Positions 1,002 through 62,643 of a DNA stretch of 64,000 nt are shown one piece after another (positions within the stretch are counted from its first letter, which is position 1; every line of letters begins with the position of its first letter). This DNA comes from Microglena sp. YARC. Its lineage: Eukaryota; Chlorophyta; Chlorophyceae; Chlamydomonadales; Chlamydomonadaceae. Location: the NCBI GenBank assembly GCA_022414725.1, contig CM039464.1:31976158-32040157 (forward strand). The letters are read 5' to 3'. A model generated the notes under the pieces. It was not told the origin of the DNA. It saw only the letters and a list, made by a program, of their open reading frames with translations, and searched no databases. Both the position numbers and the translations under genes were made by a program.

Positions 1002-4000
1002 ATGCTCCTTGCAGATGAAGTGATTGCCGCTCTGAGGAGGGAGGGGCTTGAGAGTAGTAACCTGATCATAGCGGTGGACTTCACTATGGTGAGAGAGGGT
1101 ACGGGCTACTGGGTTCAGGGTTCAGGGTACGGTAGACTTCACTGTGGTGAGACAGGGTACGGACTACATGGTACAGGGTTCAGGGTTCAGGGTACGGTGG
1201 ACTTCACTATGGTGAGAGAGGGTTCAGGGTACAGGGAACAGGGAACAGGATACAGAATACAGGGTATGGGATGCAGGGTACAGGGTACAGGGTTCAGGAT
1301 ACACAATACAGGGTATGGGATACAGGGTACAGGAATACAGGGTTCAGGGTACAGGGAACAGGATACAGAATACAGGGTATGGGGTACAGGGTACAGGGTT
1401 AAAGGTTTCAGGGTACAGGGTACAGGGAACAGGGAACAGGATACAGAATACAGGGTATGGGATGCAGGGTACAGGGATACAGGGTTCAGGGTCCAGGGAA
1501 CAGGATATAGAATACAGGGTATGGGATACAGGGTACAGGGTTCAGGGTACAGGGTACAGGAACAGGATACAGAATACAGGGTATGGGATACAGGGTACAG
1601 GGTTACAGGGTACAGGTTCTAGGGAACTGGATACAGAATACAGGGTATGGGAAACAGGGTACAGGGAACAGGATACAGAATACAGGGCATGGGATGCAGG
1701 GTACAGGGATACAGGGTTCAGGGTACAGGGTCCAGGGAACTGGATACAGAATACAGGGTACGGGATACAGGGTACAGGGTTACAGGGTTCAGGGTACAGG
1801 GTCCAGGGAACAGGAAACAGAATACAGGGTATGGGATACAGGGTACAGGGATACAGGGTCCAGGGTCCAGGGAACAGGATACAGAACACAGGGTATGGGA
1901 TACAGGTCACAGGGTTCAGGGTACCTACATTTGCACTCTTCTATCTTTTTTGTGTTCGGGGAGACCGGCCATGTGTTTGTATATATTCTAGCTTGATGCG
2001 ATCTTGCTTGCTTGCCTTGCTGCAATCATGCTTGCTTGCTGCAATATTGTCTTTCTTTTTCTGAGGATTTGTTTCAAGACCCCTCCAGTAGAGCGGGCTT
2101 GTCTTGGGCCAACAATGGGATGTCCATGACAATGTAATGTAATGTTATATAGATGTACATGGCCAGTCCATTTGCTTGCATTGGGGGCAACCACCAATGC
2201 TTGCTGAAAAATAATTAAATACATGGTACGCCTTATTACGAGGCGTGAGGTTGAGGGGGCCAGACCATTTGCTTGCACTGGGGGTGACCACCAATGTTTT
2301 TTGCTGGTAATATATTTGTAATGGCGGGGTGCGTCACTACACCAGGGCACTACATTTTGACATTTTGGGTTACGTGAAACACGTAGATATGGTCTAAAAG
2401 TTACGTGCTTGCACTGGGGCCAACCACCAATGCTTGTGCTGGTAATATATGTGATCGCAGGGTCCGGCACTACATCAGGGCACTACATTTTTGTCGGAGT
2501 GCGCTCACTACACCAGGGCACTACATTTTGACATTTTGGGTTACGTGAAACATGTAGATGGGGTCTAAAAGTTACGTGCTTGCACTGGGGCCAACCATCA
2601 ATGCTTGCTGAAAAATAAATAAATGAATACATAGTGCACCTTATTACAAGGCGTGAGGTTAAGGGGGCCAGCCCATTTGCTTACACTGGGGCCGACCACT
2701 AATCCTTGCTGAAAACAAATGAATAAATAGTACGCCTTATTACAAGGCGTGAGGTTGAGGGGGCCAGCCCATTTGCGTGCACTGGGGCCAACCACCAATT
2801 GTACGCATAAACTTTAATAGGGTGTGAGGTTGAGGGGGCCAGCCCGTTTGCTTACACTGGGGCCAACGACCAACGACTAACACTACCACCACTACCTCTA
2901 CCACTACCCCTGCCACTACCACCCCTACCACTACCACCCCTACCACTACCCCTACCCCTACCACTGCTATTACCACCACCAACACTACCACCACTAACCC
3001 TACCACCAACACTACCACTGCCTCTACCACTCCTATCACCACCACGACCAGTACCACTACCACCACTGACCCTACCACCACCACCACCTCTAACCCTACC
3101 ACCACCACCACCACCACCACCACCACCACCACCAATAACACCAATACCCTTACCACCACCAATACCCCTACCACCACCACCACCACCACCACCACTACCC
3201 CTACCACCACAACTACCATCACTACCGCTACCACCACCACTAACCCTACTACCACAACTACCACTACCACCCCTACCACAACCACCACCACAACTACCCC
3301 ACCACCCCTACCCCTACCGCCACCACTACCCCTACCCCTACCCCTACCACCACCACCACTACCACCACTACCCCTACCCCTACCCCTAACCCCACCACTT
3401 ACACTACCACCACGACTACCACCACCACTACCACCACCACCACTACCCTACCACCGCCACTTCCACCTCCACAGAGTAATCGATCGACAGGGAAGAAGTC
3501 TTTTGGTGGACTGTGCCTCCACCAAAACGGCAAGGCACAGACAGGGCCCTATGAAAGGGCGATCAACATCATTGGCAAGACATTGAACAACTTTGATGAG
3601 GACAACTTGATACCTTGCTATGGTTTCGGAGACAGTAAGTCGTGGTACTGCCAGCCTGGAATATCATAGGCAAGGCGCTGAACAACTTTGATGAAGGCAA
3701 CTTGATACCTTGCTATGGTTTCGGAGACAGTAAGTCACGGTCCTGACAACCTGGGATAATAAATTGTGCATGTGTATGGACCGGTATATCATTTGAGGTA
3801 GACCAAAGGAGAGTATTATGTTGTATATAAATGGTAACTTTAGCCTAGTTAGACTGCCGGCATCATATGATAACATATTGCTGTTCCCTGCCTATGGAAG
3901 GCTCCCATCACACGACGCATGCAACACCAGAATCCAACTCCCAACACACAATTCATTTAGCCTATTTTTATCTCCCTCGCCTGCTTACCCTAAGCATTCA

Positions 4001-7000
4001 CACCTTGCATGCAGCATCAACCAGAGACAAGGGCGTGTTCTCATTTTTGGGGGGCGACCGACCAGCCAAGCCCTAAACCCTAAACATTCACAGCTCGCAT
4101 GCAGCATCGACCAGAGGCAAGGGCGTTTTCTCATTCTTTTCGGGCGATCGTCCAGCCAAATCCTAATCCCTTAACCCTAAACATTCACTCCTTGCATGCA
4201 GCATCAAACAGGGACAAGGGCGTGTTCTCATTCTTTTCGTCATGGTTGCCAGGCTCAGTTGGAGGCATCAGCCGTGTCAGCCGAACCTTAAACCCTAAAC
4301 CCTAAACTCTTAACATTCACACCTTGCATGCAGCATCAACCAGAGACAAGGGCGTGTTCTCATTCTTTCCGGGCGACCGACCAGCCAAAGGAATGGAGGA
4401 AGTCGTCCAACGGTATAGAGACCTGGTGCCCAAAGTGAAACTGTCAGGACCTACCTCATTTGCAGCAGGTATGACCAAGTTTTCTGAAAGATGTTTTGGC
4501 ACTATAAGGCATTATTTGGCAGTGTTTGGCCGCGTTTGCAAAAGATCCTGGTCCCCAAAGTGAAGTTATCAGGACCCACCTCATTTGCAGCAGGTAAGAG
4601 TATGGTCATAAAATTTTGTTCCAACGTTACAGAGACCTTTTTTTCTTCTTTGCACTGTTGGGCACTGTTGCACTACTGGGCACTTTTTGGCAGTTTTGCC
4701 TGCGTTAGCCAGCGTTTGCGAAAGATCCTGGTGCACAAAATGAAGCTGTCAGGACCCACCTCATTTGCAGCAGGTAAGCCTAGCGCGATAGATTAATTTT
4801 CCAACAACACAGACACCTTTTTTACGTCTTTGGCCACTAATGGGCACTTTTTGGCAGCGTTTGCCAGCTTTAGGCAGCGTTTGCGAAAGATCCTGGTGCC
4901 GAAAGTGAAACTATCAGGACCCACCTCATTTGCAGCAGGTAAGACTAATCCAATAAAATAATGGTCCAACAATACTGTGAGTCTGTGACCTGGTGCCCAA
5001 AGTGAAACTGTCAGGACTACCTCATTTGCAGCAGGTATGACCAACTTTTCTTTGGACACTATTTGGCACGTTTTGGCAGCGTTTGCAAGAGATCCTGGTT
5101 CCCCAAGTGAAACTGTCAGGACCTACCTCATTTGCAGCAGATAAGACTAACGCAATAAAATTGTGTTCCAACGTTACGGAGACCTTTTTTTATTCGTTGG
5201 GCACTAAGGTGCACTTTTTGGCAGCGTTTGGCAGCATTTGCGAAAGATCCTGTGCCGAAAATGAAACTGTCAGGACCTACCTCATTTGCAGCAGGTAAGA
5301 CTACCGCAATAAAATAATGTTTCTAAGGTATAGAGACCTGATGCCGGAAGTTAAGCTGTCAGCACCTACCTCAATTGCAGCAGGTATGACCCAGTTTTCT
5401 TTGGGCACCATTGGGCACTTAATGGCAGCTTTAGGCAGCGTTTACGAAAGATCCTGGTGCCCAAAGTGAAGCTGTCAGGACCTGCCTCATTTGCAGCAGG
5501 TATGGCCCAGTTTCCTTTGGGCACATTTGGGCACTTTTTGGCAGTGTTTGGCAGTGTAAGGCAGTGTTTGCGAAAGATTCTGGTTCCAAAAGTGAAGCTG
5601 TGAGGACCCATCTCACTTGCAGCAGGTATGGCCCAGTTTCCTTTGGGCACTATTGGGGGTGGCCAATTTACGTTAAAAAAACCTGTTGGGGGTGTTTAGC
5701 GAGGCCATGTATAGTGAGTCCACACCCCGCTATGATCATTTAATCACATGGTACTTACTCTTTTTGTCGGAGCCCCCTCTTCAAGGGCGCGGGAGCCCCC
5801 ATGTTTACCCATTTGTCCGTCTGACCAACCGACCGTCTGACCGAGATGAAGGCTGACACGTCAGCCAACGGTCTCGTAACTAACTCGCTTCCGTTGACAC
5901 CTGTTGCTCAGTCGTGAAAACTCTCCGCCATTTTTTAGCGTCGCATGCGACGCTGCATATAACTTGTCCACCTTGTATGTATGTGTATGTATGTTACAGT
6001 CCAGGGGTAGGCCAAAGGGACTTGCCCAACCGTGATATGAAGGGCTTAAAAATAAAAAGTATGTTTGCTCCCATCTGTGTACAATAAAAAATAAAAAATA
6101 AAAAATAAAAATAAAAATTAAAAATAAAAATAAAAATTAAAAATAAAAATTAAAAATAAAAAGTATGTTGACTCCCATCTGTGTACAATAGCATGCCAAT
6201 AGTTTGGGAGGTGTTTAGCGAGGCCATACTTGGTGTAGTGCGCTGTAGCATGACTCTACGTCATCCAAGAACCGGCTGCTCACACAAACAAGAAATCATG
6301 TCGGCCGACGTGAACCACAAAGCAAAGAGCAAACCTCTCCCTAATCAGGCACTCCTACATCCCCCTCCCTACAAGCACAACCACACATACACCCCCCTCC
6401 CTACAAACACACCCCACCCTACCCCCCTCCCTACAAACACAAACACACATACACCCCCCTCCCTACAAAGCACTTACTATGTGTCCTCCTTTTTTATCCC
6501 CAGCTGTGTACAACAGCATGCAGATAGTTGCCAAGAGTGGATTCAAATACCATATTCTGCTCATCGTGGCTGATGGACAGGTGCGCAGGTTTAGGGTTTT
6601 AGGGTTTAGTGTTTAGTTGCCAAGAGTGGATTCAAATACCATATTCTGCTCATCGTGGCTGATGGACAGGTGCGCAGGTTTACGGTTTTAGGGTTTAGTG
6701 TTTAGTTGCCAAGAGTGGATTCAAATACCATATTCTGCTCATTGTGGCTGATGGACAGGTGCGCACAAGCAGTCTAAGTAGTTATGTTTTGCTTCACTAT
6801 CACTTTCCTGTCCTACCATTTTAATCATTGTGGCTGATGTACAGCTTAGCCTAAGCAGTACTGTTTTGCTTTACTATCACTTCCCTGCCCTACTATTTTG
6901 CTCTTTGTGGCTGATGTACAGCTAAGCCTAAGCAGTACTGTTTTGCTTCACTATCACTTTCCTGTCCTACCATTTTAATCATTGTGGCTGATGTACAGCT

Positions 7001-10000
7001 AAGCCTAAGCAGTACTGTTTTGCTTTACTATCACTTCCCTGCCCTACTATTTTGCTCTTTGTGGCTGATGTACAGCTAAGCCTAAGCAGTACTGTTTTGC
7101 TTTACTATCTTCCCTGCCCTACCATTTTAATCATTGTGGCTGATGTACAGCTAAGCCTAGGCAGTACTGTTTTGCTGTCCACGCACCACACACACCACAC
7201 ACAACATACACCCATACACACGACACACCACACACCATACACACCACACACCACACGCACCATACACCCATACACACCACACACCATACACACCACACAC
7301 CATACACCATACACACCACACACCACACACACCATACACTAGGCTTGTTCAAAAGTATTAGTCATCTTTTAAAATTTGCCACATGTCAATCACCCTCCTA
7401 AACCACTTGGGTGACATTTATGGATATAACACAAATGATGGCTTATATTATGCATGTGTCATCATGTGTTGTGAAGCAATGACTAGGGAGCTGTAAACCA
7501 GTTCCTCCATTTTTCCCCTTAGGATTGTCAAATTAACACGGGTGTTGGGGCATGTCAGAAGTACCCTATATTACACAAGGCACACCAGCACCAAATGTAT
7601 TGTTGCCTCCATAGGTGTACTTGGGGGGTCAGACTGGTAAGCATGTTGTGCTACTCTGATGCTGTTGTGTGTCGTGGGCACACACATTGACCTAAATGGG
7701 TATGGACCCCAGCATGTAGGCCCCTATATGAGCACTTGACCCATTGCATGGAGCTCCATCCTCAATAGTCAGTTCAAATTTGAATGGGTGCCACATGTGC
7801 ATGCAAGATGAGTCTATTATACCCACCATGTGATAAACAGCTGTATCCCTCCACGCCCAAACACGCTGCGGAGGTCCGAAAAGCGCTAAAGTGTGAAAAT
7901 AGGTTTGGAGCCTCGCAATAGATCACCCGAAAAACTTCACCACTGGACTTGGCTCGGTTATTAGAGAAAGGTTTTACCTAGCGCTGAAAGTTTGGACCCC
8001 AAACTCCCAGAATGGCACAGTGTGGGTGACGAAATATGTAGACAGGCTCCATAGGTTACTTTATTTCGGAAGCGACTGATACTTTTGAACACACCTATGC
8101 GAAGGACGAGGGGTCAAAAGCACATAACTCGCGCAGGGCGGCATTCCATTCAGTGTGGAGTCAGTGAGGTGGGTATTAAGGCAGTACCTTGTACTGCCAT
8201 GTCAACATTCTCAAAAAGCCTTGCCCCGAGTATTGGGCAGCTTTCCCGTGTCACGACATTTACAAGGCTTATATATGACTTCATGAGAACTTCTGATTTA
8301 ACGACTAGCCAAAGAAAGTGGATAGGAGAGAACTCGACCATTACCCTAACTAAAATTCGAAATCATTTCATAAAGTATCACCATAGGAAGATTTCCCTTT
8401 GCGTCATAAAACGTTGGCGTGCTGAGGGTGCCAAGAATCAACCGAATTATACGGACAAACCCCGATCTGGGCGTCCCAAGGTTACTGACGGAGCCATTAG
8501 GAAGGAGGCAAAGCGTTTAGCTAAGCAAGGGAACACGGCTGGAGATATTACGAACATTCTTCACGACAGGAAAGGCGTGGAGGTCTCAATATCGTCTACC
8601 CGTCGCATCTTGGGTAGCGGGCGCAAGCCGCTAACGTGGGCCTTGGTGCAGCCTAAAAGGCAACTCAGCCAAATCAACAAGAACTTGAGGATCGACTTTT
8701 GCGCCAAGCATCTACATGCACACACGTCAAAGTGGGTGTTCATTGATGCCAAATTCCTGTATGTTTACCAGTACCCAAAGGGTAAACTGAGGTTTGCATG
8801 GCAGAACTTGAGGTACAAGGGTGCTTCAAAGCTCTCAGCCAAGCCTGGTGGTCCGTGGGTCTACCTGTTTTATGGAGCTGTAGGGCTCAACTTCAAGTCA
8901 GACCTCTACTTTGTACTCCCTTCACCCCCTATTGGAACCAATGCCAAGAGGAACAAGGTCAATTTCAAGAGTGAGCACTTCATTGAAATGCTTGGGAAGA
9001 TGTACAAGGAGATTCAGAAGGCTTACCCTAACAGAGGGTTCAAGATGCTTTGGGACCATGCTAGGCAACATGATAGCAAGATGAGCAAGGCAGCTGTCCA
9101 AGACATTCAGCACAACATCTTGCAGTCCTACCCACCACAATCGTGGGACATCAACATCATTGAAAATTGCTGGGGCATGTTGGACCAGCAGCTCCTCAAG
9201 TCTAGGGCCAAGTGCAGTGCTGACTGGTATAGGAAGATCCGTGCAGCTTGGGGGAGGGTCCAACAAGGTTCAATCAACAAGCTGGTGGATGGAGTGAGAG
9301 ACAGGCTCCAACTTATAGTGGAAAGCAATGGGGAGTGGGTACCCCACCACTAGGAACAAGGAATCTTTGGTTTAATCCCCATGTTACAGCCTCTACACCG
9401 GACCATCCCATGGTGGTTGTGTTATGTGTTTGTGAGGGGTGACACACTACAAGCATGGTCTACCTTATTCTTCTATACATATTTGGGACATACATATAGC
9501 CATAGTTCTACGACAACATGCTTGGGATGCATTCCCTTCTTGCCCTCCTTGTAGCCACACATCTGAAAACAGGAATTCTGTGGGCACTACCATCCTCACA
9601 TGTATGTATATTGAGCTGCCATGTAAGCCATGTGGCCATGTATGTCACTTGGACCTCTTGCTAGTTTTGAGGCCTTTCCCATGCTTTTTGCTTATGGACA
9701 TACTGATGTAAAAGGATAACACTCCAAGCCTTCAACCTTTTGTGTCCTTCTACCTTTCTAAACTTAGCCTTAGCCAACCCAAAAGTGTCTCCTATTTTGT
9801 GAAGCTTGCAGATTATAGGGGCAAACCAACCCAAATGATTTTGAATTACAGCTATGACACCTTCGAGATAACTATTGAATTTGCATGGGGTGTATGACAT
9901 GCCAAGTGTCCCTGTGATTTTTGTGTGCAATTACATACAAAATGACCCTTCAGCCATGTAGAAAACAGGCATCAATACTAAATAAGTGTTGTTAGAGGAG

Positions 10001-22696: not shown

Positions 22697-23420
22697 TCGA
22701 AACCAAGCCACAACCTGCCAACCCACCGTGTTCCAAGAGATCAAGACCAAGCCACAACCTGTCAACCCACTGGCGTCCGCGTGATTGAGACCAAGCCACA
22801 ACCTGTCAACCCACCGGCGTCCGCGTGATTGAGACCAACCCACAACCTGTCAACCCATGGGCTTCCACGTGATCGAGACCAAGCCACAACCTGTCAACCC
22901 ACCGGCGTCCCAGTGATTGAGACCAAGCCACAACCTGTCAAACCACCAGCGTCCGCGTGATTGAAACCAAGCCACAACCTGTTAACCCATCGGCGTCCGC
23001 GTGATTGAGACCAGGCCACAACCTGTCAACCAACCGGCTTCCACGTGATCGAGACCAAGCCACAACCTGTCAACCCACCGGCTTCCACATGATTGAGACC
23101 AAGCCACAACCTGTTAACCCATGGGCTTCCAAGTGATCGAGACCAAGCCACAGCCTGTCAACCCACCGGGGTCTGCGTTATTGAGACCAAGCCACAACCA
23201 GTCAACCCACCGGCTTCCACGTGATCGAGACCAAGCCACAACCTGTCAACCCACCGGCTTCCACGTGATCGAGACCAAGCCACAACCTGTCAACCCACCG
23301 GCTTCCACATGATCGAAACCAAGCCACAACCTGTCAACCCACCGAGTTCCACGTGATCGAGACTAAGCCACAACCTGTCAACCCACCGGCTTCAACGTGA
23401 TCGAGACCAAGCCACAACCT
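22697..23420 (+). repeat. 44-bp minisatellite built from the stop-codon region
   Basis: About 17 units of TGATCGAGACCAAGCCACAA plus CCTGTCAACCCACCGGCTTC and CACG. The unit is the end of exon 8 (CCTGTCAACCCACCGGGTTC, CACGTGATCG) repeated, including the TGA. It would lie in the 3' UTR. Copies vary at GGCTTCC/GGCGTCC/GAGTTCC. Confidence 0.9.
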
Positions 23421-23454
23421 GCCACCACCAGCTTATTCAACTTCAAGTTGTCAG

Positions 23455-24560: not shown

Positions 24561-24563
24561 ATG

Positions 24564-48870: not shown

Positions 48871-48879
48871 ACTTCATCA

Positions 48880-50245: not shown

Positions 50246-50249
50246 GTTT

Positions 50250-51096: not shown

Positions 51097-54000
51097 GTAG
51101 GTTTGGTCGGAGATCAAATAATAATAATATTAATAATACTAATAATATGACAACATGGATTACAAGGCACCCGAGAGGCAAGTCGATGGTGGGTCGGAGC
51201 GACAGGAGAAAGGAGACCAAGGGGAGCCCATAAACATGGTAGGTTTGGTCGGAGATCAAATAATAATAATACTATTAATAATACTAATAATATAGCAACA
51301 TGGTTGACAAGGCACCCGAGAGACACATCCATGGTGGGTCAGAGCGACAGGAGAATCAAGATCAAGGGGAGTCCGGAAACATTTTTTAAGTTTGGTCGGA
51401 GATCAAATAATAATTATAATAATGATAATAATACATATTATATAATACATAATACATAATAATAATGGTTGGTATGGTAAGCGATCAAATAATAATCATA
51501 ATAATAATCATAATAACAATAGAATAATAATAACAACAGCAATAATAATAATGATAAAAAAATAATAAGAAGAAGAAGAAGAAGAAGAACAAGAATCAAG
51601 CATAGAAGGTTGGGTCAGAGATCTCCCCCCTCAACACATTTTTTCGACTTGTTTTATGGTTTGGGGGCTTGCGACACCTTGAGGTCCCGATTTCATCATA
51701 CGGTACACGAGCAACTGTCCAACTGCCCCCCCATTAGGCTGTGGTGGTGTGGAGCAGCAGGAGAGAGGAGAAAAAGGGGAGTCCAGTGACATGGTAGGTT
51801 CTTTTTGATTTGCAGTAACATGGTAACAGTAATTTTTGATTTACAGTAACATGGTAACAGTTTTTATTTACAGGAACATGGTAACAGTAATTTTTGATTT
51901 ACAGTAACATGGTAACAGTTTTTATTTACAGGAACATGGTAACAGTAATTTTTGATTTACAGTAACATGGTAACAGTTTTTATTTACAGGAACATGGTAA
52001 CAGTAATTTTTGATTTACAGTAACATGGTAACAGTTTTTATTTACAGTAACATGGTAACAGTATTTTTTGATTTACAGTAACATGGTAACAGTTTTGATT
52101 TACAGTAACATGGTAACAGTAATTTTTGATTTACAGTAACATGGTAACAGTTTTTATTTACAGGAACATGGTAACAGTAATTTTTGATTTACAGTAACAT
52201 GGTAACAGTAATTTTTGATTTACAGTAACATGGTAACAGTTTTTATTTACAGTAACATGGTAACAGTAATTTTTGATTTACAGTAACATGGTTACAGTTT
52301 TTATTTATTGTAACATGGTAACAGTTGTTTTTTATTTACAGTAACATGGTTATTTTTGATTTACATGTTGTAAATAAATAAATAGTGCACCTTATTACGA
52401 GGCGTGAGGTTGAGGGGGGCAAGCCCGTTTGCTTGCACTGGGGCCAACCACCAATTTTGTATGATTTATATTTTGTCTCATGCGCCTTTGCTGGTTTTTG
52501 AAGGTTGGGCAAGACCCTTTAGCCTATTTGGCCACCCCTGTACAGTATACAGACACATATACCGATATACGTGCTGCTTAAGCTAAATAGACTTGCCCAA
52601 CCTCAATATTGGGATGGCTACTTAGGCCAAATAGGCTAAATAGACTTGCCCAACCTCAATATTAGGACAGACTGTATACAAAACTAGCACCGGTGGCCTG
52701 AACCCCAACAAATAGTATACAATGGGGGCCCGGAGTTAGTGCTATGCAGATGATTTAACTTTAATTTAACTTTAATTTAATTTAAATTCAAGACAAAATC
52801 ATGACTATTACATAAAATATGATGTGTGACAACAACTGCTTGCACTCCGTGTGCATTAACTCAGTGACTACCTCCCACTCACCTGCTCTTACACCAGTGC
52901 TTACTTTACATTTATGAGACAAAATCATGACTATTATATAAAATGTGATGTGTGAGAACACCTGCTTGCACTACGTGTGCATCAACTCAGTGACATGTTA
53001 TCATGACTATTCAAAGTACATGTGTGAAAACAGATGCTTGCACTCCACGTGCATCAACTTGCTGACTACCTCCCACTCACCTGCTCTTACACCACTTCTT
53101 ACTTTAAATTTATGAGACAAAATCATGACCAGTCTAAGTTCATGTGATGTGTGACATCACCTGCTTGCACATCATGCGTATCAACTTGCTGACATGTTTA
53201 TCATTACTCGTCTAAGTACATGTGATGTGTGACAACACCTGCTTGCACTCCATGTGCATCAACTCAGTGACATGGTTATCATGGCTATCCTTATTTGCAT
53301 TTGATCCTTATTGCCAAATCTAGCACCTGCTCCTTTGTCATTCCACAGGCAAGTTCCTCAGAGCTGAACAGGCGTATCATGCAGTGTGAGAGCATCCCTG
53401 AATTGGACTCCCTTGTGAAGGAGAACCTCCACCTCTTCACCTTCACCAACACAATACCACCATCTCACGCATTCAATCAGGCATTTGATCCTTTGTCATT
53501 CCACAGGCGAGTCCATCAGAGCTGAACGGGTGTATCATGCAGTGCGAGAGCATCGCTGAATTGGCATCCCTTGTGAAGGAGAACCTTCACCTCTTCACCT
53601 TCATCAACACAAGGTGCAGTGATTATGTTTTCAAATCTGAAAGTGGGTTTATCGTAGCTGTAAGGTTGCAGGCCTCCTCCAGGGACAACGTTTTGGTCCT
53701 TTCTGTAGCTTTTTGTAGCTTTTTAGGGCCATTTAGGGCAGCAACAAAAATATACTGTTTTTGTATACTTTTTTATAGTGATAATTTCGTTGAAACGGGG
53801 TCAAAACTAGCGATCACCATAAATAGGGGAAATACAAATCCCTGACAAGGTGATCTGGTTCAATATGCTACTGGTCTGATGCCTCTCTGGCAAAAAAAGT
53901 CCACTATGTAAATTCGTTTATATTCCCTCCCTCATTTGAATGTCCTCATTTTGCAGTCGTGAATTGGCCTGTATGTATGAATGTATGTAAGTATGTATGT

Positions 54001-56210
54001 ATGTATGTTTGTATGTATGTATGTATGTATGTATGTATGTATGTATGTTACAGTCCAGGGGTCGTCCAAATAGGGTAAAGGGACTTGCCTAACCATGAAA
54101 GGAGGGGCTAAAAAGAAAATCATTGATGAACTGAACTTAAATAATCGTTTTACCGACGGGGGTCCGGAGTTCGTGCAACAGTTATAATTTAATTATACAA
54201 TTGTAATTAAATCGACATCCCACATGGACCCTGACAAGTCGGACCTCCCCCCTTCCCCCAACAGCACCGCCATCTCCCGCACTGCCAAGCTCGCCACCAC
54301 ACCAGCACACCACCACCACCTCACCACCACCTCGCCAACTAACCACCACACCAGCACACCACCACCACCTCACCACCACCTCGCCAACTAACCACCACAC
54401 CACCACCACCTCGCCAACTAACCACCACACCACCACCACCTCACCATCACCTCGCCAACTAACCACCACACCACCACCACCTCACCACCACCTCGCCAAC
54501 TAACCACCACACCACCAGCCTGGCCTGCGATCTGCGCAGCTTCACGTGCTCCATACTTTCACCACCATACACCGCATACCCCCATACACCATACATCACA
54601 CACCACCACCCCCTTCCCCGAACAGCACCGCCATCTCCCGTACTGCCAAGCTGGAGCGTACAGGTCGTGCCGCCGCGCTCATCCTAGCAGACGCGATCCT
54701 CGGTGAGAAAGTGGCAAGCCAGCTGGCTGAGATGGAGCCCCGAAACCACTCCAGCATCCTGTGGAGCTACGCCAAATTAGGTGGGTGAATCACAGTAAAT
54801 AAAATAAATAAATACAATTAGGTGGGTTGATCACAGTAAATAAAATAAATAAATAAAATTAGGTGGGTTAATCAGTTAATCACAGTAAATAAAATAAATA
54901 AATAAAATTAGGTGGGTTAATCACAGTAAATAAAATTAATAAATAAGTAGTACGCCTTATTACTAGGGTTGGGATGACATATGAACGTATGATCATAAGT
55001 TCACATAATCATACGTATATTCACACGTATGATTGTTTCTCGAAATGTATATTCATACGTATGTACTAACGTATGAGTAGTGTACGTCGAAAAGTACAGC
55101 ACGCTTCCCGGCATTTAACTTTCTCGGTTTTCATTCAATATTTGATTTAGATAGCTCATTGGAAAGCTACTGACCACCTCTATCACAATATGCAATAAAA
55201 ATAAACTTTACAGTGTGCCATTTTGTTTAAATTTGGCCCAAAGTTTGATTTAGATAGCCAGATATCAGGCACAGCGCTTCTGGTCGTGATTTATGTTCCG
55301 AGATTTGGATAATCTAAACTCGTCCGATTATTATTTTGAGACTTGATATGAGATGCCAATGAAATTAGCTATGCGGCAATATCTTAAACCCCATGTAAAA
55401 GTATTTTCTCGAGAAGAGTACAATTTTCCTCATACGCTTTCATACGTTTATATGCATACGTTTATATGCACGTTTATTCACGTTTATATGCATACGTTTA
55501 TATGCATACGTTTATACGGCATATAAAAATCAAAATATACGTTTGCTTCCCAACCCTACTTATTACGAGGCGTGAGGTTGATGGGGCAGCCCGTTTGCTT
55601 GCACTGGGGCCAACCACCAATATAATCACATTAAGATATTAAGCTGTTGGACTTTGCAGCACCTTTTCCTTTTCTGTTTAGCCCTTCCTGCCACGGTGAA
55701 GCAAGTCCCTTTAGCTTTATTTAATTGTACGATTCTCATCACATGTATTAATGAAGTACTCGCCACCGGTAAACCGATTGCTTGGGGTTCAGTTCATCAA
55801 TGCTGATTCTTCTTAGCCCTTCCTGTCACGGTTGGAAAGCCTATTTGGCCTACCCTTGGACTGTAGCATACATTTGAATAGGCAGAACAAAACGAAGTGA
55901 GCAGTGCAATGTGAGCCTAACAAAGATGGCTGGTTCCTGAGGTGACAAACAAGGACAGTTGGCTTGGCACCAGAGAACACAGTGAGCAGTGCAACGTGAA
56001 CCTAACAAAAATGAGTGAATCCTGGAATGCTCCCGTTGATAAGACTTGGCCTAGTCGTCTGCTGCCCATGGTGTACCAGCTCACGCAGCAGACGATAGTC
56101 TTATCAACACTGCTTCATGGGTCTCGATGTTGAAAGTAAGGTAAGTAATAGGTCTATAGCTAACATCTCTGACCCCTGTTTGACCTCCAAACATCCAAGC
56201 CACACTTTAG

Positions 56211-56258
<48 letters not shown>

Positions 56259-57073
56259 CAAGGAACACTCATTTGAACACATGTTTGTTGTAGGCATCAC
56301 CCCAGCAAAGATCTCACCCCAAGATCCTGGCCGAAGAAGGACATGAGGAAGCTCCAGGCTCAAGGGATTGCTAACATCTCCCATGTTTCAACACAAACTT
56401 TAGGTATCACCCCCCGCAACCAACACACGTTTGAACACACACTTGAACACATGTTTGTTGTAGGCATCAACCCCAGCAAAGATCTCGTCCCCAAGATCCT
56501 GGCCATGGCGAAGAAGGACATGGTGGTGTTCCAGGCTTGAGGGATTTTTAGCATTTCCCATGTTTGAAACCAACCTTATGTCATCACCTCAGGCAACAAA
56601 CACACGTCTGAACACACATTTGAACACATGTTTGTTGTAGGCATCACCCCCAGCAACGATCTCGTCCCCAAGATCCTGACCATGGCGAAGAAGGACATGA
56701 TGAAATTCCAGGCCCAAGGGATCGCTAACACCCTTTGGGCACTAGCCAAGATGGACTACCAAGACTCCACGGGCTTCGTGACCTCCATGCTCAAGGGTGC
56801 GAGGAACAAGACAAGCAGCAAGCTGGGGGATTTTGAGCCGCAGCACGTGGGCCAAACCCTCTGGGCCCTGGCCACTCTGAAACATGACGACCCTGAGTTT
56901 GTGGGGGAGCTGCTGGAGGCGGCAACGCCCAAGCTGAAGCACTTCAGCCCACAGAATCTAGCCAATACGGCGTGGGCTCTGGCCACGCTGGACTACCGTG
57001 GCGATGACAGGTAGGTGGAGGATGTGCAGACACTCCCTGGGTAGAAAATAAGCAGAAAGAAGTGAGGTGTGGA

Positions 57074-57106
<33 letters not shown>

Positions 57107-57723
57107 TCTATTGGTGTGCGTGGGCTCTGGCCACGCTGGACTACCGTGGCGGTGACAGGTAGGTGGAGGCTGGGCAGGCACTCCCTGAGGTAGAAAATAA
57201 GCAGAAACAAGTGAGGTGGAAGTGTGTGTGTGTGTGTGTGTGTTCTATTGGTGTGCATGGGCTCTGGCCACGCTGGACTACCGTGGCGGTGGCAGGTAGG
57301 TGGAGGATGGGTAGGCAGTCCCTGAGGTAGAAAATAAGCAGAAAGAAGTGAGGTGTGGAAGTGTGTTTGTGTGTGTTCTATTGGTGTGCGTGGGCTCTGG
57401 CCACTATGGACTATCGTGACGGGGAGGGGGAGGGGGAAGATGTGCAGACACTCCCTGGGGTAGAAAAAAAAGCAGAAAGAAGTGAGGTGTGGAAGTGTGT
57501 GTGTGTGTTCTAATGGTGTGCGTGGGCTCCGGCCACTCTGGACTACCGTGGCGGGGAGGGGGAGGGGGAGGAGACCCCAACCAACCCCTCCTGCTCCTCC
57601 TCCCCCCCTCCCTCCCTCCCCCCCCCCCCTCTCACTCCCTCCCCCCCTCTCACTCCCTCCCCCCCTATCCCTCCCTCCCCCCCCCCCCCTCCCTCCCTCC
57701 TCCCTCCCCCCCCTCTCACTCCC

Positions 57724-57768
<45 letters not shown>

Positions 57769-60700
57769 ACTGTCAGGTTCCTGTCCACAATGGTGTCTAC
57801 AGCCATGCCCCCCCCCCCCCCTCCCCCTTCCCCCCCCTCTCCCTCCCCCCTCTCCCTCCCCCCCCCTCTCTCCCTCCCTCCCCCCCTCCCTCACTCCCTC
57901 CCCCCCACCCCCACTGCCAGGTTCCTGTCCACAATGGTGTCCACAGCCATGACCCCAAAGCTGAATCTGTTCAACGCCCAAGATGTGGCGAACACCCTGT
58001 GGGCCCTAGCTACACTAGGCTACCAGGACAGCGCTTTCCTCATCAAGCTAGTCGCCCAAACACGACTGAAGCTACAAGACGCGGACTTCAACCCACAGAA
58101 CATGGCCAACAGTGCGTGGGCCCTAGCTGTCCTGGGCCACTACGACTCCCGCTTCCTGTACGAGCTCACAGACAGGGCCAAGCCAAAGCTCCCCAGCTTC
58201 TCTGCGCAGAATGTATCAAACTTGGCCTGGAGTCTAGCCACCTTCTCCCTGCTTGAGGAGGGCTTGATGGCACAGCTCCAGGAGCAGGTACGATGAGTAC
58301 AGCTCAAATGCAGGTTTGGGAGGGGCTGTTATATCGGAACCATCTAGATTTGGACTCATGAGACGTTGATTTGGGCTGATTAGACTTATAGAGTCTAGCC
58401 ACCATCTTCCTACTGGAGGAGGGCTTGATGGCACAGCTCCAGGAGCAAGTACAATGGGTACAGCTCAAATGCATGTTTGGGAGGGGCTGTTAAATCGGAA
58501 CCATATAGATTTAGGGTCATGAGACGTTGATTTGGGCTAATTAGTTGTATATTTGGGCTTATTCAACTTAGAGTCTAGCCACCTTCTCCCTACCGGGGGC
58601 AGGGTTGATGGCACAGCTCCAGGAGCAGGTGTGATGGGTACAGCTCAAATGCAGGTTTAAGAGGGGCTGCTATATCAGAACCATACAGATTTGGGCTCAT
58701 GAGACGTTGATTTTGGCTAATTAGACGTAGAGTCTAAGCATCTTCTTCCTACTGGAGTAAGGGTTGATGGCACAGCTCCAGGAGCAGGTACGATGTTTGT
58801 TCAAAATATGAAGATTCACGTCTTCAATGCAGGTTTGGGAGGGGCTGTTATATTGAAAACATATAGATTTTGGCTCATGAGACGTTGATTTGGGCTAATC
58901 AGACTAAGAGTCTAGCCCCCTTCTCCCTGCTTGAGGAGGGCTTGATGGCACAGTTCCAGGAGCAGGTACGATGGGTACAGCTCAAATGCAGGTTTGGGAG
59001 GGGCTGCTATATTGGAAACACATAGATTTTGGCTCATGAGACGTTGATTTGGGCTAATTAGACTTATAGAGTCTAGCCACCTTCTTCCTACTAGAGGAAG
59101 GGTTGATGGCATAGCTCAGGGAGCAGGTACCATGGTTTCTCAAAACCTTGCGTTTCACATCTCAAATGCAGATTTTGGGGTGGCTGTTATATCGGAAACA
59201 TAGATTTGGGCTCATGTTATGTAGATTTTGCCTCATGAGACGTAGATTTCAAGATTTGGGCTAATGAAATGTAGATTCTGTACCCTTGAAAAACCTAAAC
59301 CCTTGCAGTTGCTCTCCCTGAAGTGAAGCACTCCTCAGCATGTGGCAACTACTGCTCTCAGCGTGGCTGCGTTGGAAACATACATTTGGGCTCATGAAAT
59401 GCAGATTCTGAAGCACCCTTAGACAACTCTTTCAGTTGCTCTCCCTGAAGTCAAGCACTCCTCAACACATGGCAACCACAGCTCTCCGCGTGGTTACTTT
59501 GGAAGCATAGATTTTGGCTCATGAGGCGTAGATTCCGAAGTACCCTTGAAACCCCCCAAACCCTAAACTCTTGCAGTTGCTCTCCCTGAAGTCAAGCACT
59601 CCTCAGCACGTGGCAACTACTGCTCTCAGCGTGGCTGCGTTAGAAACATACATTTGGGCTCATGAAATGCAGATTCTGAAGCACCCTTAGACAACTCTTT
59701 CAGTTGCTCTCCCTGAAGTCAAGCACTCCTCAACAAATGGCAACCACAGCTCTCCGCGTGGTTACTTTGGAAGCATAGATTTTGGCTCATGAGGCGTAGA
59801 TTCCGAAGTACCCTTGAAACCCCCCAAACCCTAAACTCTTGCAGTTGCTCTCCCTGAAGTCAAGCACTCCTCAACACGTGGCAACCACAGCTTTCAGTGT
59901 GGTTACGTTGGAAATATAGATTTGGGCTCATGTAACGTAGAGTTTGGCTCATGAAATGCAGATTCTGCATTTTTTCTGTACTATCTCTCTAGATAGTTTT
60001 TTTTTTTTTTTTTTACGAATAAAATAAAGTACCCTTGAAAGATTATGACGCACCCTTAAACAACACCTTGATGATCCTTGCAGTTGCTCTCCTGAATCAT
60101 TCATCGCCGTTCCATCCTTGCTGTTGCTGTCCCTGAAGTCAAGCACTCCTCAGCACGTGGGAACCGCTGCTCTCAGTGTGGTTACATTGGCAACATACAT
60201 TTTGCCCCGTGTAACGTAGATTTTGGCTAATGAAATGCAGATTCTGAAGTACCCTTGAACACCCCTTGCAGTTGCTGTCCCTGAAGTCAAGCACTCCTCA
60301 GCACGTGGCAACCACAGCTCTCAGCATGGCCAAGCTCGGCTGCCCCTTGAACCCTGCTTTGGGCTCAGCCCTAGCTACAGGACAGCCTGGCAGCTTTAGC
60401 ACCAAGGACGTGTGTGACCTGGCGTGGGCTCAAGCTGTTTCAGGGAACCCCCAGCAGCCTTGGCTGTTGGCCCTCGTGCTCGGTCACGTTTTTGGAGAGG
60501 GGGAGGGAGAGGGAGGGGGCGATTTGGAGGGCCTGGACCCGGATTTCAAAGTACAGCTGTTCCAGTACACGTCCGAAGTCATGGAAGGGGACCAGGAGGG
60601 CCTACGTGAGCAACTAGCTGGCGAGGAGGGGGCCCAACTCCAGCTATTGCACGCATCTTGCCAGGGTGTGTGGGAGGAGCGGGTCCAGTCGAAAAGCTCT

Positions 60701-62643
60701 ACAGCCACAACTTATGTGGATAGCGTCACCCAGGTATGCAACCAGCTTCCGGGGTGGGAGGTCCTAGGACAAGAGCGCTTGACAGACGACAAGTTGTACT
60801 CCATGTCTGTGGCAGTACAGGTGCAGCCTCAGTCTGGGCAGGGCAAGCCGATGAAAGTGGCGGTGGAGGTAGTTGGCCCACGGCACTACAGTCGCAGTAC
60901 GCCCTACAAGCAGCTTGGGGCATCAGCGGCTAAGGATCGAGCTTTGGAGCGAAGGGGGTGGAGTGTGTTGAGCGTTCCTTTCTTTGAATGGGCGGCTGAC
61001 AAGGAGGAAGAGGAGAAGAAGGTGTTTCTCACAAAGGCTCTTGCGGCACTGAAGGTGCGATGTGTTCTTGTGTGCATGTTACATTCCAGTGTTCGACAAG
61101 TTTGGCTGGAGGGAATTGCTAGAACTCCCCGTGGAGTGTATTGCGCGTTCCTTTCTTTGAATGGGCGGCTGACTTGGAAAAGCTCATGGCTGTAGACACC
61201 ATAGTGGACAAGAACCTGACAGCATGGGTGGGGGGGGAGGGAGGGGGGGGGGGGAGAGGAAGGGGTCATGGCTGTAGACACCATAGTGGACAGGAACCTG
61301 ACAGCATTGGTGGGGGAGGGAGGAAGGGGGGGGGAGGGAGAGGAAGGGTCATGGCTGTGGACACCATAGTGGACAGGAACCTGGCAGCATGGGTGGGGGA
61401 GGGAGGGAGGGAGGGGGGGGGGGGGGGGGGAGAGGAAGGGGTCATGGCTGTAGACACCATAGTGGACAAGAACCTGACAGCATTGGTGGGGGAGGGAGGA
61501 AGGGGGGGGGAGGGAGAGGAAGGGGTCATGGCTGTAGACACCATAGTGGACAGGAACCTGACAGCATGGGTGGGGGAGGGAGGGAGGAAGGGGGGGGGGG
61601 GAGAGGAAGGGGTCATGGCTGTAGACACCATAGTGGACAGGAACCTGACAGCATGGGTGGGGGAGGGAGGGAGAGGAGGGGGGGGGGAGAGGAAGGGGTC
61701 ATGGCTGTAGACACCATAGTGGACAGGAACCTGACAGCATGGGCGGCTGACATGGAGAAGGAGGAGAAGAAGGAGTTTCTCACCAAGGGCTGTGCAGCTC
61801 TTAAGGTGGGTTGTGTGTGTGTCTGTTTGTATGTTGGTGTGGGGGGTGTATGGGGGTCTGTATGTTACAGTCCATGGGCAGTGTTGTCCATGTGTGTATG
61901 TATGTATGTATGTATGTATGTATGTATGTATGTATGTTACAGTCCAGGGGTAGGCCAAATAGGCTAAAGGGACTTGCCCAACCGTACAGGAAGGGCTTAA
62001 AAAGAACAAGCACTGATGAACTGAGCCCCAAACAATCGTTTATCCGACGGGGGCCCTGAGTTCGTGCTACATTGATAATTTAATTCTACAATATGTGTGT
62101 GTGTGTGTTTTACAGTTATGTTGTTACCAGGATCGTCTGGGTCGACAACGAGTTACATGGCAGAGGAAAGTCTGGTACTTATTTTATCTTTTGTTGTTAT
62201 TTGTTTACTACATATGGTTAGGGACCGGCATCTCATATGATGCGGTGCTTCTGGTGGTGGCTTGTGTACATAGGTGGGGGTGGCATGTGGCGGTGGCGTC
62301 TGTTCAAGCCTTAGCTATATTTATTTTACTGTGATGCTAGTTGGGACCGGCATATCATATGATGTTGACCAAAGGCGGGAATGATATCATATGGTCTTGT
62401 ATATACATGGTAACTTTAGCCTAGTCAGACAGCCGGCATCTTGTGGTATCATGTTATCATATTGCCGTTCCCTACATATGATACCCCATGGGCAGCAGAC
62501 TGAAGTACAAGAACATCATAGATTCCTCCAAATATTGAAAACTGCTGACATTCCTCCTTCGCTCTGTTTTTTCTATGCAGTACAAGAACATCGTAGGCAA
62601 TGCTTCACAGAAGGCAAGCAAGGCAGAGGAAACTGTAGCATGA
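50580..62643 (+). CDS. OPR/HPR-like helical repeat protein with C-terminal RAP domain
   Basis: Exons: RG-rich exon(s) ending 51096; 53507-53613; 54626-54780; 56641-57010; 57921-58287; 60272-61054; 62581-62643 (TGA). All junctions GT-AG, phases agree (0,2,1,2,0,0); 614 residues from 53507 onward. Seen: at least nine 36-38-residue repeats of the form F-x-x-Q-x-x-A-N-x-x-WALA-x-L (for example FNAQDVANTLWALATLGYQD), about residues 55-400. A RAP domain follows at about 528-574 (VAVEVVGPRHYSRS, then KDRALERRGWSVLSVPFFEW), then an acidic/lysine tail. RAP proteins with such solenoids bind organelle RNA and act in chloroplast or mitochondrial rRNA/mRNA processing; the exact target is unknown. The usual EVDGPSHF motif is EVVGPRHY, so Asp is Val. 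The RG-rich N-terminal part and the start are uncertain. Introns are packed with junction echoes, MITEs and SINE-like repeats. Confidence 0.85.
51097..51405 (+). repeat. Donor-side echoes of the RG-rich exon
   Basis: Copies of GATTACAAGGCACCCGAGAG through GGGGAGCCCATAAACATGGT at about 51155-51250 (nearly perfect) and 51300-51385 (decayed), about 142 bp apart. A third, very decayed copy (AGGGGAGTCCAGTGACATGG) lies at about 51733-51805. AATAATAATACTAATAATA spacers. Confidence 0.85.
51405..52345 (+). repeat. AT-rich tract and ACATGGTAACAG minisatellite
   Basis: AATAATAAT/AAGAAG sequence to about 51600; about 130 bp of low-copy DNA; then from about 51810 about 16 units of 32-38 bp, AATTTTTGATTTACAGTAAC and ATGGTAACAGT. 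The unit seems to start from the decayed donor echo TGACATGGTAGGTTCTTTTT. Confidence 0.85.
52370..52760. repeat. R2 copy followed by R1 copies in both orientations
   Basis: R2 minus at 52370-52457 (CACCTTATTACGAGGCGTGA). R1 plus fragment at about 52490-52560 (GAAGGTTGGGCAAGACCCTT). R1 minus at about 52570-52760, with an internal 50-bp duplication of AATAGACTTGCCCAACCTCA. Confidence 0.65.
52795..53290 (+). repeat. Tandem repeat of about 120 bp, four partial copies
   Basis: Units contain AAAATCATGACTATTACATA, TGATGTGTGACAACACCTGC and TTGCACTCCGTGTGCATCAA, CTCAGTGAC; some add CTACCTCCCACTCACCTGCT. Lies just upstream of the exon at 53507. Confidence 0.8.
53340..53500 (+). repeat. Full-length echo of the next exon (53507-53613)
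   Basis: Acceptor CCACAG at 53343-53348, then 107 bp very similar to exon 53507-53613 (ASSSELNRRIMQCESIPELD versus ASPSELNGCIMQCESIAELA), but the donor is lost (ACAATACC instead of ACAAGGTG). This copy actually has the more regular peptide, so it may still be used with another donor; I read it as an acceptor-side echo. Confidence 0.7.
53507..53613 (+). CDS. RAP gene exon (CESIAELASLVKENLHLF)
   Basis: Reads IMQCESIAELASLVKENLHL then FTFINT, the start of the helical region. Acceptor 53504-53506, donor GTGCAG at 53614. 107 nt, phase 2. With the next exon it reads FINTSTAISRTAKLER. Confidence 0.75.
53614..54215 (-). repeat. Intron remainder with R1 copy and ATGT tail
   Basis: Low-copy sequence to 53960, then an ATGT tetramer tract (53968-54048) joined to R1 in minus orientation (ACAGTCCAGGGGTCGTCCAA to about 54205). 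The tetramer is the reverse-complement tail of R1. Confidence 0.7.
54240..54545 (+). repeat. Acceptor-side echo of next exon plus CCACCACC minisatellite
   Basis: CCCCTTCCCCCAACAGCACC then GCCATCTCCCGCACTGCCAA (about 54247-54290) repeats the intron end and start of the exon at 54626. It decays into CTCGCCAACTAACCACCACA repeats to about 54520. Confidence 0.85.
54626..54780 (+). CDS. RAP gene exon (first helical repeat)
   Basis: Reads STAISRTAKLERTGRAAALI, LADAILGEKVASQLAEMEPR and NHSSILWSYAKLG; SSILWSYAKLG is the first WAxA-type repeat helix. Acceptor CCGAACAG at 54618-54625, donor GTGGGT at 54781. 155 nt, phases 2 and 1. Confidence 0.88.
54775..54945 (+). repeat. Donor-side echoes AAATTAGGTGGGTT
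   Basis: Four copies at about 40-55 bp of AATTAGGTGGGTTAATCACA plus GTAAATAAAATAAATAAATA, carrying only the last seven exon bases and the donor. Confidence 0.85.
54946..55625 (-). repeat. R2 copy split by MITE C
   Basis: R2 halves at 54946-54963 (GTACGCCTTATTAC) and 55559-55625 (CTTATTACGAGGCGTGAGGT...CCACCAAT). They join cleanly once the 595-bp MITE and one target copy are removed. Confidence 0.88.
54964..55558. mobile_element. hAT-type MITE C, 595 bp
   Basis: TIRs TAGGGTTGGGA and TCCCAACCCTA. Perfect 8-bp target duplication CTTATTAC at 54956-54963 and 55559-55566, within an R2 repeat. Interior AT-rich with CATACGTATATTCA and CATACGTTTATATG repeats; no transposase. Confidence 0.92.
55660..55880 (+). 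repeat. Two overlapping R1 copies
   Basis: Truncated R1 at 55662-55720 (GCCCTTCCTGCCACGGTGAA) and a second at about 55760-55875 (GGGGTTCAGTTCATCAATGC, TTGGCCTACCCTTGGACTGT, then AGCATACATTT). Confidence 0.68.
55881..56257. other. Low-copy intron segment and 47-nt C run
   Basis: A short duplication (GAGCAGTGCAATGTGAGCCT / GAGCAGTGCAACGTGAACCT) near 55897 and 55982, an imperfect palindrome AGACGATAGTCTTATCAAC near 56090, then 47 consecutive C at 56211-56257. The homopolymer length is likely uncertain in the assembly. Confidence 0.5.
56260..56640 (+). repeat. Two acceptor-side echoes of the exon at 56641
   Basis: Copies at about 56260-56385 and 56420-56555 repeat GAACACATGTTTGTTGTAGG and the first 80-100 bp of the exon (AAGATCTCGTCCCCAAGATC, GCGAAGAAGGACATG). 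The second ends with an in-frame TGA in CCAGGCTTGAGGGA; the first has a deletion. Confidence 0.88.
56641..57010 (+). CDS. RAP gene exon, three helical repeats
   Basis: 370 nt. Repeats: FQAQGIANTLWALAKMDYQD; FEPQHVGQTLWALATLKHDD; FSPQNLANTAWALATLDYRG. Acceptor TTGTTGTAG at 56632-56640, donor GTAGGT at 57011; phases 1 and 2. These 36-38-residue units are the OPR/HPR-type solenoid seen in algal organelle RNA factors. Confidence 0.93.
57011..57560 (+). repeat. Donor-side echoes of the 56641-57010 exon
   Basis: Four copies of about 125 bp repeat GCGTGGGCTCTGGCCACGCT, GGACTACCGTGGCGGTGACA and GGTAGGTGGAGG, plus the intron start (CACTCCCTGAGGTAGAAAAT, AAGCAGAAAGAAGTGAGGTG). They begin near 57118, 57255, 57388 and 57522. 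The donor decays in later copies (GGGGAGGGGGAG). Confidence 0.9.
57561..57920 (+). repeat. Extreme C-rich tract with one acceptor echo
   Basis: About 350 bp of CCCTCCCCCCTCTCACTCCC sequence including 42 consecutive C (57725-57766). An echo of the next exon's start (ACTGTCAGGTTCCTGTCCAC, ATGGTGTCTACAGCCATG) lies at 57767-57806, then another 100-nt pyrimidine tract leads to the true acceptor at 57918-57920. Confidence 0.9.
57921..58287 (+). CDS. RAP gene exon, three helical repeats
   Basis: 367 nt. Repeats: FNAQDVANTLWALATLGYQD; FNPQNMANSAWALAVLGHYD; FSAQNVSNLAWSLATFSLLE. Acceptor CACTGCCAG, donor GTACGA at 58288; phases 2 and 0. The first bases complete Arg211 with the previous exon (DDRFLSTMVSTAM). 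Confidence 0.93.
58288..59150 (+). repeat. Five donor-side echoes of the 57921-58287 exon
   Basis: Units of about 170 bp, starting near 58395, 58570, 58731, 58908 and 59075, repeat AGTCTAGCCACCTTCTCCCT, GAGGAGGGCTTGATGGCACA and GCTCCAGGAGCAGGTACGAT, plus AGCTCAAATGCAGGTTTGGG and ATGAGACGTTGATTTGGGCT from the intron. Confidence 0.9.
59290..60271 (+). repeat. Seven acceptor-side echoes of the RAP exon
   Basis: Copies of CTTGCAGTTGCTCTCCCTGA, AGTCAAGCACTCCTCAGCAC, GTGGCAACCACAGCTCTCAG begin near 59306, 59431, 59575, 59700, 59842, 60079 and 60118. Several are preceded by AACCCTAAACTC. Spacers contain AGATTTTGGCTCATGAGGCG, shared with the echoes at 58.3-59.1 kb, so the two arrays have mixed. A 16-nt T run lies at about 59998. 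Confidence 0.9.
60272..61054 (+). CDS. RAP gene exon carrying the RAP domain
   Basis: 783 nt, 261 codons, phase 0 at both ends; acceptor TTGCAG, donor GTGCGA at 61055. Residues 1-60 hold two more degenerate repeats (STPQHVATTALSMAKLG and FSTKDVCDLAWAQAVSG). An acidic linker GEGEGEGGGDLEGLDPDF follows, then helices, then the RAP domain at about 195-241: VAVEVVGPRHYSRSTPYKQL, then AKDRALERRGWSVLSVPFFE. A lysine/glutamate tail follows. RAP is a compact domain related to Vsr-like nuclease folds and thought to contact RNA. Confidence 0.93.
61128..61806 (+). repeat. Donor-side echo of the RAP exon, interrupted by an inverted array
   Basis: The left half at about 61128-61184 repeats GTTCCTTTCTTTGAATGGGC and GGCTGACTTGGA. 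The right half at about 61738-61806 repeats GGCGGCTGACATGGAGAAGG to TTAAGGTGGGT, the last 65 bp of the exon plus donor. Between the halves sits the inverted array 61185-61737. Confidence 0.85.
61185..61737 (-). repeat. Seven inverted copies of the 57921 exon's acceptor junction
   Basis: Seven units of 83-93 bp begin CATGGCTGTAGACACCATAG, TGGACAGGAACCTGACAGCA, followed by GGGGGAGGGAGGAAGGGGGG. The reverse complement is TGCTGTCAGGTTCCTGTCCA, CTATGGTGTCTACAGCCATG, preceded by a C-rich tract. That is the pyrimidine tract, acceptor and first 35 bp of exon 57921-58287. Starts: 61185, 61267, 61350, 61443, 61527, 61613, 61700. Confidence 0.9.
61890..62095 (-). repeat. R1 copy with ATGT tail
   Basis: ATGT tetramers at about 61897-61937 joined to ACAGTCCAGGGGTAGGCCAA and the whole R1 body to AATTTAATTCTACAATA; one of the most complete copies. 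A GTGTGTGTG run follows. Confidence 0.78.
62096..62335. other. Intron segment, no gene recognised
   Basis: Holds an open frame of about 79 codons without family motifs, and a short R3-like TAGGGACCGGCATCTCATAT near 62218. Confidence 0.4.
62336..62483 (+). repeat. Dispersed repeat R3
   Basis: GGGACCGGCATATCATATGA, GGTAACTTTAGCCTAGTCAG, CATGTTATCATATTGCCGTT. Third R3 copy. Confidence 0.68.
62490..62530 (+). repeat. Acceptor-side echo of the terminal exon
   Basis: GCAGACTGAAGTACAAGAAC then ATCATAGATT resembles the terminal exon start GCAGTACAAGAACATCGTAG 75 bp downstream. Confidence 0.55.
62581..62643 (+). CDS. RAP gene terminal exon
   Basis: Reads YKNIVGNASQKASKAEETVA then TGA at 62641-62643. 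Acceptor TTTTTTCTATGCAG; phase 0 with the RAP exon (LAALK/YKNIVG). The Lys/Ala/Glu-rich tail suits a C-terminus. Inferred from phase and echo; no family homology expected. Confidence 0.6.
   Translation, partial: YKNIVGNASQKASKAEETVA

Follow-up and report, generated by a model that had tools for sequence, protein, structure and literature searches.

Genes and repeats of the window

The window, that is, the whole 64,000-nucleotide stretch of DNA analysed here (C3:31976158-32040157 of an assembly of 568,105,699 bases in 2390 contigs), carries two genes on its + strand, one of the copine/RGLG type and the other with a RAP domain. Exon models of both genes were rebuilt, and together include 26 internal junctions. 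The exons of the copine/RGLG-type gene lie at 1015-1088, 3475-3634, 4334-4468, 6504-6580, 15515-15558, 16995-17127, 21489-21566 and 22607-22696, position 22696 being the end of the stop codon; the small exon of 44 nt at 15515-15558 was newly located and its ends were read by eye. Those of the RAP-domain gene lie at ~51000-51096, 53507-53613, 54626-54780, 56641-57010, 57921-58287, 60272-61054 and 62581-62643, the first of these being the least certain.

The joined copine protein is 49-62% identical to copine/RGLG proteins among the 120 matches listed, and its relatives in the protein search include U-box copines, for example that of Chlamydomonas eustigma. From within exon 57921-58287 to its end, the RAP protein is identical to EukProt P0001 (409 aa), save for one 10-residue insertion, and the source of P0001 is evidently the same species as that of the window. 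After P0001, seven of the next 11 matches were named, and all seven belong to Chlorophyta (Chlamydomonas sp. UWO 241, Scenedesmus, Prototheca). As judged by protein homology, the host is probably a green alga.

The two genes are separated by 21 kb of a satellite (25399-46301) with a 100-bp unit, ~209 copies and 98% matches, which was masked in the counts given below. A long dispersed sequence at 7339-10748, in introns of the copine gene, occurs a second time in direct orientation, and an inverted copy was seen by eye near 20690-21325.

Echoes of splice junctions within introns

A template of 45 exonic and 45 intronic nt was built for each junction and compared by local alignment with its own intron, reversed templates serving as the control. 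Junction-spanning echoes, which include the exon edge, the splice site and adjoining intron, were found at 19 of the 26 window junctions at a local score of at least 35, whereas at a looser score of at least 16 the reversed templates matched at four of the 26 (12 matches; acceptors 16995, 54626 and 57921 and donor 51096). With a score of at least 24 and at least 8 nt on each side, echoes are present at 18 of 26 window junctions versus 1 of 26 for the control, and under strict scoring at 16 of 26 window junctions and 34 of 94 junctions of the unselected genes described below, versus 0 of 120 for the control. The window search returned no junction-spanning echo for acceptors 3475, 6504, 15515 and 62581 or for donors 15558, 21566 and 53613. 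At acceptors 6504 (copy near 6178-6205) and 62581 (copy near 62506-62525), exon-side echoes almost without an intron part were recognised by eye, and with these two the total agrees with the 21 of 26 echoed junctions given by the first-pass annotation. The junction echoes are thus real, and they resemble their own exon edge.

All of the echoes are on the + strand. In the copine gene, donor 1088 has two echoes (1130..1253) and donor 3634 has one (3685..3758), with a tandem unit of 95 bp. Acceptor 4334 is preceded by three (3987..4239), and donor 4468 is followed by nine (4549..5653), eight of which have GT. At donor 6580, two near-identical echoes are followed by five weak ones without GT (6625..7173), seven in all rather than the 14 or more reported earlier; the earlier copy numbers for donor 4468, acceptor 16995 and acceptor 60272 were reproduced. 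Acceptor 16995 has nine echoes, all with AG, in a CCCTAAA-rich array (15991..16963), donor 17127 has two strong echoes (17290..17556), and acceptors 21489 (21337..21407) and 22607 (21999..22074, ~560 bp upstream) have one each.

In the RAP-domain gene, the least certain exon ends at donor 51096, where the reversed control matched too; this donor has two strong echoes, one of them without GT (51194..51430), and weaker ones to 51800. Single echoes precede acceptors 53507 (53317..53393), 54626 (54223..54291, in a C-rich region) and 57921 (57732..57812, in a C-rich tract), the last two being junctions at which the reversed control also matched. The echo of donor 54780 (54856..54915) contains 7 exonic nt only. 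Acceptor 56641 has two strong echoes (56263..56508), donor 57010 has four with GT in two (57118..57572), and donor 58287 has five with GT in all (58405..59190). Part of one echo of donor 58287 (58936..58965, position by eye), flanked by AG and GT, corresponds to the 10-residue in-frame mini-exon EGLMAQFQEQ of P0001, its use as an exon being a prediction of that gene model. The seven echoes of acceptor 60272 (59261..60165) are of alternating types, as expected from unequal exchange of double units, and donor 61054 has one echo (61761..61827).

As seen from both TRF arrays and ungapped direct repeats, the window introns contain head-to-tail copies of one unit. An ungapped seed-and-extend scan found 1232 local repeat segments in the window versus 0 after base shuffling; gapped BLAST self-alignment fused arrays and overlooked some repeats close to the diagonal.

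Telomere-like CCCTAAA / TTTAGGG repeats adjoin three of the junction arrays, at 16323-16980, 4071-4302 and 6580-6620 (the last by eye, with an extra T). The telomere-like motif CCCTAAACCC shows no clear enrichment, having 21 matches in five clusters in 217,011 bases (loci L051 and L058 being one place), as compared with a mean of 2.7 and a maximum of 40 for permuted motifs.

Divergence and extents of the echoes

For the unselected genes, one echo was taken at each of 44 junctions, and the differences from the true exon number 43, 45 and 69 at codon positions 1, 2 and 3, of ~546 sites each (P=0.017). This distribution is what would be expected of an unconstrained echo if the true exon also underwent silent changes, and it fits neutral decay. 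The corresponding figures for all strong window echoes, 34, 36 and 92, are inflated because copies have changes in common. Among the window echoes alone, the differences are 25, 23 and 40, a mild third-position excess that fits the absence of constraint less well and would fit copies made from the exon at different times. Overall, the echoes look free of coding constraint. At the 19 window junctions, identity is 0.92 on the exon side and 0.85 on the intron side, as fits one decaying lineage in the former and two in the latter.

Under strict scoring, none of 50 echoes contains a whole exon, and the length of the exonic part varies widely (median 41.5 nt, two longer than 120 nt) with no recurrent breakpoint found. 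The fraction of a repeated piece that is exonic is non-uniform and skewed toward the intron (KS P=0.00015), which is not fully explained.

Unselected genes of the same assembly

Comparison genes were obtained by Pfam searches of the assembly for RAP (PF08373), chaperonin (PF00118) and adaptin (PF01602) domains and were picked regardless of repeats. Junction calls relied on splice consensus and reading frame, no junction being assigned below the score or margin limits; one-sided and paired calls agreed at 14 of 15 donors and 15 of 15 acceptors. The resulting 94 junctions comprise 51 in six chaperonin genes (stretches of 7-10 kb) and 43 in 3-kb loci. Thirty-seven 3-kb loci were used, leaving out L003 (the window itself), loci within the six 10-kb stretches, L009 (as a junction source), and L014, L021, L045, L059, L060, L064, L065, L066 and L068.

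At a score of at least 24, an echo is present at 45 of the 94 junctions (48%, gene-bootstrap interval 34-62%) versus 3 of 94 for reversed templates, and at a score of at least 35 at 41 of 94. Some genes have few or none, the chaperonin gene CCT_L044 having 0 of 7 junctions in ungapped repeats. The echo pattern thus reaches beyond the window and occurs on several contigs of the assembly.

Junctions in repeats as compared with chance

Whether junctions lie in repeats more often than expected by chance depends on the null, and several nulls disagree. By area there is no excess. In the window, 17 of 26 junctions lie in local repeats versus an intron coverage of 0.587 (P=0.32), with a repeat-coverage profile that is roughly flat across the junction, and for the unselected genes the proportion is 36/94 (0.38) versus an intron coverage of 0.39. 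Area coverage is too lenient a null, since a random intron base is likelier to fall in a much-copied array than is a fixed point such as a junction. When corrected for size, with each intron point weighted by one over its copy number, the expectation falls to 9.2 in the window (P=0.00025) and to 19.1 in the unselected genes (P ~0.0001 or less; gene-bootstrap ratio 1.88, 1.44-2.36). Omission of dispersed repeats did not lower the excess in the unselected genes (36 versus 17.9). Random re-placement of the 48 arrays of the window covered 4.5 +/- 1.8 of 26 junctions, with a maximum of 12 in 5000 trials, versus 17 observed, and simulated random growth (eight runs per setting) covered 4.8-9.4 of 26 at intron coverages of 0.46-0.71.

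Part of this excess is a matter of detection, since decay affects both members of a purely intronic pair but spares the conserved member where the true exon edge is one of the two, so that old duplications stay visible longer at an edge; by calculation, the advantage is ~1.3-fold. A uniform neutralisation of exons by 8%, which reduced the unselected count from 36 to 34.3, was judged insufficient, the echoes being of different ages, and an age-matched version was used, in which each true exon was mutated by the divergence of its own echo. The window count then fell to 13.9 (P=0.022). The neutralised counts were 11.1 versus 9.1 (P=0.28) in the chaperonin stretches and 16.1 versus 10.0 (P=0.013) in the 3-kb loci, which gives 27.2 versus 19.1 (1.4-fold, P=0.018) for all unselected junctions and 41.1 versus 28.3 (P=0.0015) with the window included; all of these P values assume independence of the junctions, which does not hold fully.

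When exons were masked and the control consisted of matched pseudo-junctions at three distances, there was no excess in the window and the chaperonin 10-kb stretches (n=75; 19, 19 and 22 versus 15.2, 19.5 and 20.5), whereas it was kept in the 3-kb loci (n=43; 14, 16 and 15 versus 7.5, 9.6 and 10.3). The partners of far intron points fall outside short loci, and hence the latter excess could be an edge effect. One adaptin gene was re-read in 10 kb, where seven of eight junctions were covered unmasked versus 2.9 expected, and 3, 3 and 2 of eight when masked. As its unmasked excess is the same in the 10-kb context as in the 3-kb loci, it is not an edge effect there. When only near interior points (60-400 nt) were taken, masked at +14 and without truncation correction, the expectation was 25.7 versus 24 for the unselected genes and 10.7 versus 10 for the window.

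By our estimate, the true junction preference lies between none and ~1.6-fold after correction (higher in the masked 3-kb loci), and is 1.9-fold uncorrected. The window was chosen for being striking and the other genes were not, and there may be a moderate junction preference. The first-pass annotation had held that random intronic duplication should not pick out junctions so often, a premise that is correct in part. The repeats themselves far exceed those of shuffled sequence; as for the junctions, this expectation fails by area, holds in the size-corrected and neutralised counts, and meets a mixed result once exons are masked.

Stop-codon edges

In the window, the copine stop codon lies within a 44-bp array on the + strand (22669..23421), which amounts to a coding-edge echo without a splice site, and the RAP stop has no echo. 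Twelve stop codons of unselected genes were examined (L001, L004, L005, L009, L010, L020, L031, L040, L044, L070, L071 and L072), and three of these (L020, L031 and L044) have an echo in the 3' flank, although mean local-repeat coverage of the 12 flanks is ~0.12 versus 0.39 in introns. Repeats therefore seem to be concentrated in introns and not around genes at large. Stop edges were dropped for L002, L006, L008 and L073, where a strong donor precedes the stop, for L007, which has a low-complexity tail of 237 residues and showed nine echoes, and for L039, which has a short flank and shares its stop with L070; that of L071 was kept although four donors scoring 4.0 precede the stop, the limit being 4.4. 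As stop edges without a splice site are echoed too, the common feature may be the conserved coding edge rather than the splice site, and in this small sample (n=12) stops do not differ clearly from splice junctions.

Origin of the echoes

The explanation given preference, with a probability of roughly 0.57, is tandem duplication that is blind to position and is best recorded where one copy stays conserved. Introns would grow by frequent short tandem duplications of tens to roughly 150 bp without targeting of splice sites, and the arrays would then grow, decay and be lost. A duplicated piece across an exon edge would be tolerated because one copy of the junction can still yield the right mRNA; the spare edge would decay as neutral DNA while selection holds the true one. 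Old duplications would then be recognisable longer at coding edges than in the intron interior, and splice junctions and stop codons would come to resemble the seeds of duplication. The molecular route may be slippage, microhomology-mediated repair or unequal exchange, and both the tolerance of duplications and the choice of the junction copy used are likewise proposed rather than observed. This explanation builds on four observations: echoes exist, they recur across the unselected genes, their mismatches are distributed as neutral decay would have it, and they occur at stop codons as well. Further support comes from the area counts, in which junctions and intron points are covered alike, from the lack of a masked excess in the window and the chaperonin 10-kb stretches, from the calculated detection advantage of conserved edges and from the broad spread of exonic extents. 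Against it stand the size-corrected, neutralised, re-placement, growth-simulation and masked 3-kb excesses, the seven of eight covered junctions of the adaptin gene and the skew of exonic shares toward the intron.

Several of the same results are what would be expected if breaks or replication trouble at exon edges, arising from R-loops, nucleosome or base-composition boundaries or transcription, founded duplications more often there. The excess left after corrections (27.2 versus 19.1 in unselected genes) and that in the masked 3-kb loci argue for such direction to coding edges, as do the position of the window above the re-placement and growth nulls and the echoing of stop edges despite their repeat-poor 3' flanks. 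However, the masked excess is missing from the window and the chaperonin 10-kb stretches, the chaperonin junctions alone give P=0.28, the strict-scored extents have no fixed breakpoint and the window was chosen for being striking, so that this alternative is a possibility to be entertained only tentatively. Also unlikely is the wider proposal that coding edges, splice junctions and stop codons alike, are genuine moderate hotspots founding tandem duplications, from which introns would grow outward, with some echoes exonised into in-frame mini-exons.

A link to splicing itself, through spliceosome-linked breaks or repair templated by cDNA or pre-mRNA, had been suggested in the first-pass annotation, and in its favour exon and intron sequence are found together in echoes at many junctions. 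It is improbable, as the presence of intron means that spliced cDNA was not the template, the exonic extents are broad without a recurrent breakpoint, and stop-codon edges are echoed as well, if in a small sample of 12 unselected stops. A junction-directed or splice-linked process is unneeded for much of the pattern, and no positional signature of one is left here. Equally hard to credit is the other earlier suggestion, that selection retains spare splice sites as backups or decoys. GT or AG is kept in 49 of 54 strong window echoes, and the P0001 model takes one echo as a mini-exon; yet this retention is near the 0.85 expected from the per-site exon-side identity of 0.92, strong echoes without GT occur (two at donor 57010, one at donor 51096), and mismatches are found at all codon positions. 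Least probable of all is an artefact of assembly or of wrong exon models. Long near-identical arrays are hard to assemble and exon 51000-51096 is uncertain, but divergence from the true edge amounts to at least several per cent for most echoes, the exons agree with conserved proteins and with a prediction made independently, and the pattern recurs on several contigs.

Relation to known systems and to intron growth

Ordinary intronic minisatellites consist of head-to-tail units of tens to ~150 bp and show higher-order patterns. The arrays described here share these features; unlike ordinary minisatellites, many of them include a conserved exon edge, usable as a dated reference. Introner elements, by definition, are similar intron sequences spread as mobile copies over many unrelated positions; the echoes described here each match their own exon edge.

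Tandem duplications at exon edges are described in three reports. In the potato RdRp gene, a single recent tandem duplication across an intron-exon boundary made a new intron (PMC4974935); there too the duplicated piece covers exon edge and intron with splice signals, whereas the copies found here are many, old and partial, and lie within introns that already exist, in many genes. Human genes located in segmental duplications have internal tandem repeats at exon-intron boundaries, with 27 intron modifications in recent paralogs (PMC2812944). These repeats likewise span the boundary, vary in copy number and can shift splicing, while the present ones involve about half of the tested junctions, within single genes of a single genome. 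In Drosophila, novel intron positions arose when coding sequence surrounding a splice motif was tandemly duplicated (PMC2891723), a similar duplication but a case of intron gain, whereas here existing introns seem to be lengthened. Among titles and abstracts, most subscription papers being outside the scope of the search, none was found that describes such echoes at a large share of the junctions of one genome.

With about half of the tested exon edges keeping spare copies in the adjoining intron, the echoes form a natural record of intron lengthening, in which the starting sequence is given by the conserved edge and the echo serves as a neutral clock. Gene predictors can mistake an echo for an exon, as in P0001, and overlaps of repeats with junctions need controls for size bias and conservation before a mechanism is claimed.

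Introns in this genome are not all long. In a pair of Arf-like genes ~11 kb apart (G000:C1:93233238-93234017 and C1:93244390-93245168), which was left out of the counts, exon matches are some 80-125 bp apart, and from these predicted exons compact genes with short introns appear to coexist with expanded ones.
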